Of a stretch of 64,000 nt of DNA, positions 42,177 through 47,764 are shown one piece after another; within the stretch, counting starts at the first letter, position 1, and each line of letters starts with the position of its first letter. This DNA is from Corynebacterium nuruki S6-4 (lineage in GTDB: Bacteria > Actinomycetota > Actinomycetes > Mycobacteriales > Mycobacteriaceae). The DNA lies in assembly GCF_007970465.1 (NCBI RefSeq), contig NZ_CP042429.1, forward strand, positions 2,542,001 through 2,606,000, in the 5' to 3' direction. The translations under genes and the position numbers were made by a program. The notes beneath the pieces were generated by a model. It ran no database searches. It worked only from the letters and a program-made list of their open reading frames with translations, and was not told the DNA's origin.

Positions 42177-42192
42177 CAGACAGAGTGGTCTA
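42177..42192. promoter_or_regulatory. McbR-like operator upstream of the TauD/ABC cluster
   Basis: CAGAC-AGAGTG-GTCTA, one mismatch from TAGAC-N6-GTCTA, 43 bp before the TauD-family start codon. A -10-like TATATC begins at its 3' end (42191). It places the 42.2–46.7 kb operon in the sulfur/methionine regulon. Confidence 0.65.
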
Positions 42193-42235
42193 TATCGGCC
42201 ACCGTCTGGCGTCCCGACGTCGAAAGGACCACACC

Positions 42236-43186
42236 ATGACATCCACCCTGGTCACCGCACCGCGCACCGCGACCGTCACCCGCCTGACCCACAGCATCGG
42301 CGCCCGGATCGACGGCATCCGGCTCGACGGTGACCTCGACCCTGCGACCGTCGAGTGGCTGCGGACACAACTGGCGACCCACAAGGTGCTCATCATTCCC
42401 GGTCAGGACCACCTCACCGACGAATCCCAGTACGCCTTCGCCGCACTTCTCGGCACCCCGACCCTCGCCCACCCCACCGTCGTCAGCCACGGCCGCGACA
42501 ACCTCGTCCTCGAGGGTGCGGCGAACGCCTGGCACACCGACGTCTCCTTCGTGGACCGGATCCCGAAGATCTCGGTCCTGCGCGGCGTCCAGCTGCCGGC
42601 CTACGGCGGAGCGACCGAATGGGCGAACACGGTCGCCGCCTACCGACGGCTGCCGGAGCCGTTGCGCGACCTCGCCGACAGGCTCTGGGCCGTGCACACC
42701 AACGACTACGACTACGCCGCGGCGAAGGACCGGGACGCCGTCGACTCCAGCGGCCTGTCCTACGCCGAGTTCACGAAGGTCCGGTTCGAGACCGAGCACC
42801 CGCTCGTCCACGTCCACCCCGAGACCGGGGAACGGTCGCTGCTGCTCGGCCAGTTCCTGTCCCACATCTCGGGACTGCGCCCTGAGGAATCGACGGATCT
42901 CGTCCGGATCTTCCAGAACCGGATCCTCAGGCCGGACAACACCCTCCGCTGGCACTGGTCGGCGGGCGACGTCGCAATCTGGGACAACCTCGCGACCCAG
43001 CATTACGGCGTCGCCGATTTCGGTGGTCAGACGCGGAAGAACCACAGAGTCACACTCGCGGGCCCGGTTCCCGTTAGCGTGGGCGGGGAACGATCCCGCA
43101 TTCTGTCCGGCGACGCGAGTGAATACTCTGTCATCGACACGCCGCGTCCGCTGGTCGACTACCACGGAGACATCGCAGACCAGTGA
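42236..43186 (+). CDS. TauD-family Fe(II)/2-oxoglutarate dioxygenase
   Basis: 316 residues. Family includes taurine and alkylsulfate dioxygenases and gamma-butyrobetaine hydroxylase. The Fe-binding pair HxD is in NAWHTDVSFVDR, the distal His in LATQHYGVADF, and the 2-oxoglutarate Arg in KNHRVTLAG. ATG 42236 follows gaaagga. It is the first gene of an operon with an osmoprotectant-type ABC system: the permease GTG overlaps its stop by 4 bp. The substrate is presumably what the transporter brings in. Confidence 0.88.
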   Translation: MTSTLVTAPRTATVTRLTHSIGARIDGIRLDGDLDPATVEWLRTQLATHKVLIIPGQDHLTDESQYAFAALLGTPTLAHPTVVSHGRDNLVLEGAANAWHTDVSFVDRIPKISVLRGVQLPAYGGATEWANTVAAYRRLPEPLRDLADRLWAVHTNDYDYAAAKDRDAVDSSGLSYAEFTKVRFETEHPLVHVHPETGERSLLLGQFLSHISGLRPEESTDLVRIFQNRILRPDNTLRWHWSAGDVAIWDNLATQHYGVADFGGQTRKNHRVTLAGPVPVSVGGERSRILSGDASEYSVIDTPRPLVDYHGDIADQ

Positions 43187-43824
43187 CCGAATTCATCGAT
43201 TCGCGGTGGCAGGACATCCTGTTCCGTAGCTACCAGCACACGAGCCTGGTCATCCAGGCCGTCATCCTCGCCACCGTGATCGCCCTGGCGCTCGCCGTCC
43301 TCGTCACAACGTGGCGTCCGCTCACCCCGGTCGCCAACGCGTTGTCGGCGGTCGGGCTGACGATCCCAGGGCTGGCCCTGCTCGGCCTCATGATCCCGAT
43401 CGTCGGTATCGGCACTCTGCCGTCGGTCATCATCGTCGTCTTCTACGCGGTCCTGCCGATCCTGCGTAACGCCGTGGTCGGGCTCGACAGTGTGTCGCCC
43501 GAACTGGTGGAGGCCGCCCGGGGCCAGGGGATGAGCACGGTCGCGGTGTTCTTCCGGGTCAGGCTCCCGCTGGCCTGGCCGGTGATCCTGACCGGAGTCC
43601 GGGTCTCCGCCCAGATGTCGATGGGCGTCGCCGCGATCGCGGCCTACGCCCTCGGCCCCGGGCTCGGCAGCTACATCTTCACCGGGCTGAGCCAGATCGG
43701 TAACGCCAACGCCCTGAACTACGCCCTGGTCGGGACCTTCGCGGTCGTCGTCCTGGCGCTCATCCTGGACGCCGTGCTCGCCCTGCTGGGCCGGCTGACG
43801 ACCTCGAAAGGTATCCGCGCATGA
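43183..43824 (+). CDS. OpuC-type ABC permease 1
   Basis: 213 residues, about five or six helices. Resembles OpuCB/ProW-type permeases for quaternary amines, with the coupling loop ELVEAARGQGMSTVAVFFRVRLP. Overlaps both neighbours (TauD stop, ATPase start) by 4 bp, a tightly coupled operon. Confidence 0.88.
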   Translation: MTEFIDSRWQDILFRSYQHTSLVIQAVILATVIALALAVLVTTWRPLTPVANALSAVGLTIPGLALLGLMIPIVGIGTLPSVIIVVFYAVLPILRNAVVGLDSVSPELVEAARGQGMSTVAVFFRVRLPLAWPVILTGVRVSAQMSMGVAAIAAYALGPGLGSYIFTGLSQIGNANALNYALVGTFAVVVLALILDAVLALLGRLTTSKGIRA

Positions 43825-45712: not shown

Positions 45713-46671
45713 CCGTCCTACGAAAGACCCTGGTGGCTGTCACCGCCGCATGTTCACTCGTCCTGGCGTCCTGCGGTCTCGGAAGCGCCGGCGGCTACAC
45801 TCCGTCGGGGACGCTCGGCGGGCCCGTCAAGGATGTCGACCTGCACGGTGCGTCGGTCTCGGTCGGGTCGAAGAACTTCACCGAGCAGATCCTGCTGGGG
45901 AAGATGGCGACGATCCTGCTGAAGTCCGCGGGGGCGTCCGTAAAGGACATGACGAATGTCCCGGGTGCGGCGACCTCCCGGCAGGCCCAGCTCGACGGGG
46001 ACATCGATTTCCAGTGGGAGTACACGGGCAACGGGTGGATCAACTACCTCGGCCACGACGATCCGATCCTCGACCCCGGCGAGCTGTACCGCGCGGTGCG
46101 GGACGGTGACCGGAAGAACGGGCTGGAGTGGCTGCCGCCCGGGGCGATGAACAACACCTACGGGTTCGCCGCGACGGATGCGACCGCGCAACGGCTCGGG
46201 GTGCACTCGTTGTCGGATGTGGCGAAGCTGCCGGCGTCCGAGCTGACATTCTGCGTGGAGTCCGAGTTCGCGAGCCGTAACGACGGTTTCGAGCCGATGC
46301 TCGAGGCCTACGGCATCTCGCCCGACGAGGTGAAGAAGTCGGTCATGGACACCGGGGCGGTCTACCAGGCGACGGCGGACGGTGACTGCAACTTCGGTGA
46401 GGTTTTCACCACGGACGGCCGGATCAAGGCGCTGGATCTGACGGTGATGGACGATGACCTGCCGTTTTTCCCGAAGTACAACCTCTCCGGCGTGGTCCGG
46501 CAGGACCTGCTGGACGCCCACCCCGGACTCGCGGACCTGTTCGCCCCGGTCGTGGCGAAGCTGGATGACCCGACCATGATCGACCTCAACGCCCGTATCG
46601 ACGTCGACGGCGAGGAACCGGTCACTGTGGCGAAGGACTGGTTGACGGAACAGGGGTTCCTCACCGACTGA
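45709..46671 (+). CDS. OpuC-type substrate-binding lipoprotein
   Basis: 320 residues. Signal peptide with lipobox LASC (Cys22). The OpuCC/ProX motif VGSKNFTEQILLGKM is present, then QLDGDIDFQWEYTGNGW and DTGAVYQATADGDCNFGEVF. Relatives bind glycine betaine, choline, carnitine and, in EgtU-type proteins, ergothioneine. The ligand here is unknown, but the McbR-like operator argues for a sulfur compound. ATG 45709 overlaps permease 2; the ribosome-binding site is ggaaggag. Confidence 0.88.
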   Translation: MTVLRKTLVAVTAACSLVLASCGLGSAGGYTPSGTLGGPVKDVDLHGASVSVGSKNFTEQILLGKMATILLKSAGASVKDMTNVPGAATSRQAQLDGDIDFQWEYTGNGWINYLGHDDPILDPGELYRAVRDGDRKNGLEWLPPGAMNNTYGFAATDATAQRLGVHSLSDVAKLPASELTFCVESEFASRNDGFEPMLEAYGISPDEVKKSVMDTGAVYQATADGDCNFGEVFTTDGRIKALDLTVMDDDLPFFPKYNLSGVVRQDLLDAHPGLADLFAPVVAKLDDPTMIDLNARIDVDGEEPVTVAKDWLTEQGFLTD

Positions 46672-46690
46672 ACAGGTTAAGCTCGGAAAC

Positions 46691-47764
46691 ATGTATCTCG
46701 GTATCCTTCCCACCAGCCCGTGGCAGCACCGTCAACTGTGGTCCGGCGAGGGTGCTTCGGCGGAGTTCGCGCAGCGCATCATGGACCCGGCCTTCCATCT
46801 GGAGCTCGCGCAACTGTGTGACCGGGCGGGACTGGATTTCCTCTATCTCCCGGACCGCAGCGCGACCTTCGGCGCGCCGTTCGACCCGTCCGCGGTGGAG
46901 AGCATGTTCGAACCCGTGACGGCCATGGCGTATCTCGCCGCAGGCACCCGGCGTATCGGCCTGGTGCCGACGGTGTCCACGACCTGGTCGGAGCCGTACA
47001 CCGTGGCCCGGGAGCTGCTGAGCCTCGACCACCTGTCCGGGGGACGTGTGGGCTGGAACGCGAAAGCCTCCTACGCGGACCCGGAGCTCCCGAATTTCGC
47101 GCACCGCGGTGACTTCTCCCCGCTGCAGGCCCGCGAGCGGTACATGGAGTTCGTGCCGCTCGTCCAGAAGCTGTGGCGCTCGTGGGACCGGGACGCCGTC
47201 CTCGCCGACCCCGCCGCCGGCCTGTGGACCAGACCCGACAGCGTGCACCCGGTCTGCCACCGCGGTACGCACTTCGAGGTCGAGGGGCCGCTGAACATCG
47301 CCCCGTCCCCGCAGTACCACCCGCTGACGGTGATGGCGGGGCGGTCCGACGGCTTCCTGCGGCTCGCTGCGCGGGACGCCGATGTCGTCTTCACGTCCGT
47401 CGCCAGTGTGGAGGAGGCGACGGAGGTGAACAGCACGCTGCGGGGGCACCTGGCCGACCATCACCGCAGCGCGGGGTCGGCCCGGCTCATGCCGGGGCTC
47501 ACGGTCGGGACCTCGCCGCACCCGGACAACAGCTTCCACCTCAGCGGCCGACCGGCGGACATCGCCGGTCAGATGGCGGAGATCGTCGAGGAGAGCGGTA
47601 TCGACGGCTTCATCGTGCTGCCGACCCTGGTGCCCGACGACATCCGCTTCTTCGCGACGGAGGTCGTGCCGGAACTGCGCGCCACGGGGGTGGTCCCCGA
47701 GGTACCGCTGGACGCCGACGGGGGCGTCCGCCCCGGGACACTGCGCACCAACCTAGGACTCTGA
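46691..47764 (+). CDS. Luciferase-like flavin monooxygenase (NtaA/SnaA/DszA family)
   Basis: 357 residues. FMNH2/F420-type TIM barrel of the NtaA/SnaA/DszA subgroup: LQLCDRAGLDFLYLPDRSA-like start, ELLSLDHLSGGRVGWNAKAS and the GRGTHFEVEGPLN-type segment at HRGTHFEVEGPLNIAPSPQ. Relatives oxidise sulfones, sulfonates or aminopolycarboxylates and cleave C–S or C–N bonds. It lies 19 bp after the binding protein, but TAAGCT (46678–46683) could give it its own leaderless promoter. With TauD and the transporter it suggests two oxidative steps on one imported compound. Confidence 0.85.
   Translation: MYLGILPTSPWQHRQLWSGEGASAEFAQRIMDPAFHLELAQLCDRAGLDFLYLPDRSATFGAPFDPSAVESMFEPVTAMAYLAAGTRRIGLVPTVSTTWSEPYTVARELLSLDHLSGGRVGWNAKASYADPELPNFAHRGDFSPLQARERYMEFVPLVQKLWRSWDRDAVLADPAAGLWTRPDSVHPVCHRGTHFEVEGPLNIAPSPQYHPLTVMAGRSDGFLRLAARDADVVFTSVASVEEATEVNSTLRGHLADHHRSAGSARLMPGLTVGTSPHPDNSFHLSGRPADIAGQMAEIVEESGIDGFIVLPTLVPDDIRFFATEVVPELRATGVVPEVPLDADGGVRPGTLRTNLGL

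Follow-up and report, generated by a model that had tools for sequence, protein, structure and literature searches.

We describe an operon of Corynebacterium nuruki S6-4 that occupies positions 42177 to 47764 of a 64,000-nucleotide stretch of the genome (NZ_CP042429.1, forward-strand positions 2,542,001 to 2,606,000; hereafter the window), the genome being a single 3.17-Mb contig. Behind an operator resembling that of McbR, it holds genes for a TauD-family Fe(II)/alpha-ketoglutarate dioxygenase, a full OpuC-type importer, and a short luciferase-like flavin monooxygenase (LLM). This layout is confirmed, and it combines known parts in a new arrangement. We tentatively propose, giving the idea a little less than an even chance, that it is an McbR-controlled sulfur-scavenging operon in which a quaternary-ammonium organosulfur substrate is common to the importer and the dioxygenase. 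An earlier note on this DNA had pictured the import of a betaine-like or other organosulfur compound and its oxidation for sulfur; that interpretation is partly supported, the substrate being one that we infer. The proposal and the rival readings weighed below overlap, and the likelihoods attached to them need not sum to one.

The positions that the note had given for the box, the dioxygenase gene, the importer, and the LLM gene were all borne out by the open reading frames (ORFs) and the DNA. On the forward strand, the operator is followed by the dioxygenase gene (42236-43186; PF02668; ATG start), a first permease gene (43183-43824; PF00528; GTG start), an OpuC/ProV-type ATPase gene (43821-44975; PF00005), a second permease gene (44972-45712; PF00528; GTG start), and the gene for an OpuC/ProX-type binding lipoprotein (substrate-binding protein [SBP]; 45709-46671; PF04069 OpuAC). 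Every junction in this series is a 4-bp overlap, and coordinates and Pfam families agree with the description of a 4-bp-overlap operon of a TauD-family gene and a complete OpuC-type importer. The LLM gene (46691-47764; PF00296; 357 aa) starts with the ATG at 46691, 19 bp past the SBP stop codon, as the note had said.

The McbR-like operator and its sulfur context

The box, CAGACAGAGTGGTCTA (CAGAC-N6-GTCTA; 42177-42192), stands 43 bp 5' of the dioxygenase ATG, as had been noticed earlier, and is one base off TAGAC-N6-GTCTA, which we take to be the McbR consensus; the string was not found in the two C. glutamicum papers searched. Allowing up to two mismatches, the window contains 21 matches to this pattern versus 8.5 expected, and none of 100 shuffles reached as high a count. 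The seven boxes with one mismatch are spread over the gap separating metE from a divergent unidentified ORF (one), the DNA ahead of this operon (one), the fpr2-cysI interval (three), and the DNA ahead of cysH (two). For the whole genome, the raw count was uninformative (41 sites versus 79 for a reversed control pattern), so the evidence is where the boxes sit. The context of 20 distinct boxes among the 41 sites was read; several adjacent ORFs are called with overlong starts, and "before" was judged from the start of the family match. Thirteen of these boxes head or adjoin sulfur-family genes or clusters, namely, metE, cysI (three boxes), cysH (two), metK, MetQ (two), a cluster containing SfnB-like as well as SfnG genes (two), an NMT1-type ATP-binding cassette (ABC) transporter cluster with a luciferase-like gene, and a sulfate-binding-protein-like gene. 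Two others, at the end of this NMT1-type ABC cluster, precede an unidentified ORF, one is the box of this operon, and four were unclear. Between 42193 and 46700 there is no box with two or fewer mismatches, i.e., the operon has one only ahead of its first gene.

The placement of the box is conserved. Of 16 additional Corynebacterium TauD loci compared (12 genomes), 14 carry a box with no more than one mismatch ahead of TauD; among control windows, the share was 1.2% of 2433. The 16 loci are related, and the 14 boxes represent conservation, not 14 independent events. Moreover, a TetR protein (L184) is a candidate McbR ortholog, being 65% identical over 194 aa to an McbR query sequence. Box placement, conservation, and the candidate ortholog together give good support to membership of the operon in the sulfur (McbR) regulon, as the earlier note had held, with regulation predicted from these features. 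McbR sites are found at fpr2/cysI in C. glutamicum too (PMC1266029; this and the other papers cited are represented here by excerpts), and S-adenosylhomocysteine releases McbR, which does not answer directly to sulfate (PMC2580772), so that "sulfur starvation" is a simplification.

McbR sites ahead of tauD1 and tauD2 have already been published for C. variabile (PMC3219685), which resembles our strain in having TauD-family genes behind such sites. There, tauD1 stands with a TauABC importer (tauD1CBA) and tauD2 lies outside that cluster; neither OpuC nor an LLM is mentioned with tauD2 in the excerpts, and the authors call both products taurine dioxygenases. The earlier note, which knew of no described system with this combination, is borne out as far as the open-licence PubMed Central literature searched is concerned, where no description of a TauD-OpuC system was seen (subscription papers and preprints lay outside the search), but it needs qualifying for the McbR sites before tauD genes.

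The sulfite reductase ORF of the window (55582-58695) is 1037 aa long, with Pfam domains beginning at about residue 574 and a long N-terminal part that is unassigned; in a relative (L113:15772-18354), the ORF has 860 aa and Pfam domains from about residue 398. Two ABC exporter-type genes (ABC_membrane plus ABC_tran; 58912-62282) lie between cysI and cysH, each of these sulfur genes having its own McbR-like boxes. Elsewhere in the same genome (G000), a cluster with StyA-like, SfnB-like, flavin-reductase-like, and SfnG (dimethylsulfone monooxygenase) genes carries two McbR-like boxes (L021:4095-11015), which suggests a predicted McbR control of dimethylsulfone use.

The dioxygenase and the importer

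Compared with solved structures, the dioxygenase scored 380 bits against 4y0e, 356 against 4j5i, 301 against Rv3406, and 296 against AtsK of Pseudomonas putida, versus 119 against E. coli TauD. The 2-His-1-Asp iron site is present (H100, D102, and H256), the ligands are the same as in AtsK and Rv3406, and they are kept in all 69 TauD rows compared (some places having been fetched twice). Tyr73 and Asp94, which bind taurine in TauD, are replaced by V82 and A96, and the Asn is kept as N97, as in Rv3406; AtsK and Rv3406 have Val or Ile for Tyr73, have Ala for Asp94, and retain the Asn (PMC3675115). We rejected a taurine dioxygenase identity, since the amino-group network of Tyr73 and Asp94 is replaced and the protein reached only 168.4 of the 313 bits set as the equivalog cut-off of the NCBIfam model PRK09553. 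By sequence, the product is instead predicted to be a sulfate-ester dioxygenase of the AtsK/Rv3406 type (type II alkyl sulfatase) that would cleave alkyl sulfates, which makes sulfate from an ester likelier than sulfite from a sulfonate. The earlier idea of TauD as a sulfur-releasing dioxygenase thus keeps its family and changes its type. No OpuC importer or McbR box is mentioned with AtsK or Rv3406 in the excerpts, and the natural substrate of Rv3406 was left open by its authors, who called 2-ethylhexyl sulfate unlikely (PMC3675115).

A second AtsK-type TauD, at 59 to 66% to that of the window, was seen in three loci of other Corynebacterium (L194:6919-12292, L196:42-9036, and L198:8077-16466), near a PF00884 sulfatase of 777 to 783 aa in all three. 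An McbR-like box lies ahead of this gene in L194 and L196 and not in L198, and L196, the locus scanned for importers, has an oligopeptide-type ABC importer nearby. These places look like a separate sulfate-ester scavenging locus.

The two permeases, the ATPase, and the PF04069 protein make up a full set for an OpuC/ProX-type quaternary-amine importer in one operon, as in the OpuC/OsmF/ProX systems (Bacillus OpuC and Archaeoglobus fulgidus ProX); the ATPase scored 318.1 bits against TIGR01186 (proV), whose cut-off is 326.6. The SBP shares the fold of these systems, an intact quaternary-ammonium cage (Y105, N149, Y151, Y219, and F233), and the anion contacts K55 and R190. The importer is therefore of a recognizable class, and binding and transport of quaternary amines are predicted for it. 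Unlike those systems, it stands behind a sulfur-type operator together with a dioxygenase and an LLM.

Ergothioneine import and breakdown, which the earlier note had offered as an option, has in its favor that the SBP belongs to the same subfamily as EgtU and has the same cage. EgtU carries Gly244 and Phe293 (Streptococcus pneumoniae numbering; PMC9732360), however, and these two markers are F57 and Y105 here; permease and binding protein are also separate proteins in the window, unlike in EgtU. We accordingly rejected an EgtU-type importer and regard the ergothioneine reading as very improbable. The pocket check proposed with that note thus came out in favor of an aromatic cage with K55/R190 anion contacts and against ergothioneine-type markers. 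Another pocket residue, N108, occupies the position of an EgtUC Thr that contacts the ligand carboxylate, where unpaired relatives of the SBP carry Thr or Ser. Asn occurs at this position in 9 of 25 SBPs paired with TauD (that of the window included) versus 0 of 51 others, a count with rows related to one another, with some places fetched twice, and with the unpaired hits represented in part. The other paired group with Asn also deviates at positions 57, 105, and 149, and L115 is without permease and ATPase genes. A tie between the N108 change and pairing is a lead only.

Pairing of TauD and OpuC genes across genomes

A TauD gene and an SBP gene lie within 5 kb of each other in 24 of 151 genomes of the family (our own included), representing eight genera, versus ~0.6 expected at random in 4.5 Mb. 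Both genes are present in 78 of the 151, and outside the 24 none has them within 50 kb on one contig, a count in which pairs split over contigs of draft genomes cannot show. The 23 paired loci besides that of the window all hold TauD, both permeases, the ATPase, and the SBP, in the orders TauD-OpuC, OpuC-TauD, and divergent. The paired state changes six times on each tree (TauD and SBP), with at least four changes forced by well-supported branches, the SBP tree being a quick tree with long branches and a weak root. Pairing occurs in several SBP lineages and several TauD lineages. We take this to mean that the same pair has been assembled repeatedly, gain and loss from one old pair being a less favored alternative. 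When the flanks of 10 paired loci were scanned, no common sulfur or betaine gene was found; a nitrite/sulfite-reductase half-domain gene beside one of them is CobG and was rejected as a sulfur gene.

The LLM behaves differently from the pair. It is near the NtaA/DszA/CmoJ group and scores just below the curated cut-off of the NtaA/DmoA flavin mononucleotide (FMN) monooxygenase model TIGR03860 (275.3 versus 279.7 bits); unlike BdsA/DszA, CmoJ (YtnJ), and NtaA, it is a short form that lacks an insertion of ~85 residues. Its fold matches the NtaA/DmoA group and is closest to those of BdsA and CmoJ, whose substrates are organosulfur compounds, and on the strength of this fold it is predicted to work like the FMN monooxygenases of that group. 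The earlier note had counted the LLM as part of the system and had suggested searches for conserved TauD-OpuC-LLM neighborhoods. The TauD-OpuC portion is upheld by the pairing in eight genera, but we rejected the LLM as a conserved partner: it is in none of 24 other paired loci at an E value of 1e-5 and in no other of the 151 family genomes at 1e-60 (for some genomes, the scoring covered a portion of the first-look candidates), and among 242 Corynebacterium genomes, six have it at 1e-40, with only the G213 copy exceeding 50% identity. That copy (L193:7348-10182) comes after a gene for an AgcS sodium:alanine symporter, at a distance from both TauD genes of G213 and from its OpuC operon, and its nearest one-mismatch box is ~0.76 kb upstream, within another ORF. 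Another strain probably has an LLM (P0002, 78%) as well as an SBP (P0125, 92%).

Immediately downstream, purT (47791-49002, forward strand) starts 26 bp past the LLM gene. In relatives, purT directly follows TauD, and here the OpuC and LLM block intervenes. This arrangement could reflect a chance juxtaposition in which the sole OpuC operon of the genome landed between tauD and purT without any link to sulfur, and the window SBP does cluster with Corynebacterium importers located away from TauD (support of 92, quick tree). We nevertheless consider chance quite improbable, given the four-base overlaps, the box ahead of the first gene only, the inclusion of the LLM in the same block, and the same pairing in other lineages.

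Substrate and competing explanations

A quaternary-amine importer, a sulfate-ester-type dioxygenase, and a sulfur regulator together suggest as substrate a sulfate ester that is small and either cationic or zwitterionic. We hypothesize that the importer would take up a small sulfur-bearing quaternary-ammonium (or sulfonium) compound and that the cytoplasmic AtsK-type dioxygenase would hydroxylate the carbon beside the ester oxygen, giving a product that would collapse to an aldehyde and sulfate. Choline-O-sulfate, the obvious compound of this kind in nature, is the leading candidate, although its being the actual substrate is itself doubtful; it would yield betaine aldehyde and sulfate, and a betT-betB-betA-like cluster could convert betaine aldehyde to glycine betaine. 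A gene for a BCCT transporter, one for an aldehyde dehydrogenase close to BetB, and one for a GMC oxidoreductase form a row in the genome, and the 18 kb read there contain no box. A search of the genome with the choline sulfatase model gave no hit. In Rhodococcus qingshengii IGTS8, a choline sulfatase-TauD-ROK locus likewise has a TauD-family dioxygenase beside choline sulfatase, and this operon was detected only in the proteome of dibenzothiophene-grown cells (PMC8557817); unlike the window genome, that locus has choline sulfatase, and no OpuC is mentioned there in the excerpts. In its most specific form, our proposal is of a recurrent, previously unrecognized module of the Mycobacterium family in which an OpuC importer and an AtsK-type dioxygenase would oxidatively cleave choline-O-sulfate or a similar quaternary-ammonium sulfate ester, releasing sulfate and betaine aldehyde and providing sulfur together with glycine betaine; here it would be under McbR and extended by the short LLM, which was probably added late and would open up one more organosulfur compound. 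We think it unlikely that all of this is correct. If true, such a module would give type II sulfatases a natural substrate class and would link osmolyte uptake with sulfur supply. The recurrent tie to a quaternary-amine importer narrows the substrate search for AtsK/Rv3406 enzymes to small cationic or zwitterionic sulfate esters and brings the question within reach of a short ligand panel, and "taurine dioxygenase" gene names in these bacteria may mislead.

Several observations weigh against a shared quaternary-ammonium substrate. TauD and OpuC are neighbors in only 1 of 242 Corynebacterium genomes, the present one. Outside the family, both genes occur in 10 genomes (among 296 genomes, at the cut-offs used, counted by eye), none of which pairs them; 3 of these 10 have both on one contig more than 300 kb apart, and 7 have them on different contigs. 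Among named records, the nearest TauD proteins come from four Corynebacterium. The five closest Corynebacterium TauD loci (76 to 80%) have the box, and their TauD gene is followed by purT instead of OpuC. The four neighborhoods with longer flanks, L111 to L114 (0.9 to 9 kb on the upstream side of TauD and as much as 9 kb on the downstream side), contained no OpuC gene, and in four of the five genomes the OpuC operon is elsewhere (~28 kb off in G213 and on other contigs in G305, G306, and G320). In 11 of the 12 Corynebacterium OpuC operons inspected, no box lies within 600 bp of the first permease, the twelfth (L141) having a weaker, GTCGA-form box at -329. At the protein level, characterized AtsK/Rv3406 enzymes favor medium-chain alkyl sulfates and have a hydrophobic pocket surface (PMC3675115), and position 96, the Asp94 site, is Ser in 8 of 35 paired TauD rows (Ala in the other 61 of 69). 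The SBP cage is an equally good fit for glycine betaine or choline, and the pocket by itself does not discriminate choline sulfate from glycine betaine. Finally, the betB match is under its curated cut-off (572 of 668.6 bits), and the effector of McbR is S-adenosylhomocysteine, not sulfate directly (PMC2580772).

In a rival reading, two separate jobs are co-regulated: TauD would cleave alkyl sulfates that enter otherwise, and OpuC would import glycine betaine or choline, perhaps as an osmolyte or as a methyl donor for homocysteine; the latter use would also suit a methionine/S-adenosylhomocysteine regulon. The SBP pocket is that of glycine betaine/choline binders, importers of this type occur on their own in other Corynebacterium, this genome has a single OpuC-type SBP at an E value of 1e-15, and the box also occurs ahead of metE and metK, McbR responding to S-adenosylhomocysteine. 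Against separate jobs, which we regard as rather unlikely, TauD and OpuC are neighbors far more often than random placement would give, in eight genera and several SBP and TauD lineages.

An aromatic cage can hold quaternary or sulfonium groups. The compound imported might be a sulfonated or sulfonium betaine (taurobetaine or dimethylsulfoniopropionate), oxidized by TauD and/or the LLM to sulfite or dimethyl sulfide, a reading whose import step overlaps that of our proposal. The closeness of the LLM fold to BdsA and CmoJ, enzymes of organosulfur compounds, and the boxed cluster with SfnG and SfnB-like genes elsewhere in the genome are consistent with it. Set against this, the TauD pocket is of the sulfate-ester type rather than the taurine type, and the LLM is missing from the other paired loci; we consider this reading improbable. 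With regard to other betaines, the excerpts of a study of fluorotelomer betaines in Gordonia (PMC7661421) do not mention glycine betaine or choline. Downstream of purT, at 49799-51454, the window contains a 551-aa ORF that has no Pfam match at 1e-5 and by eye resembles mycobacterial HNH repeat proteins.

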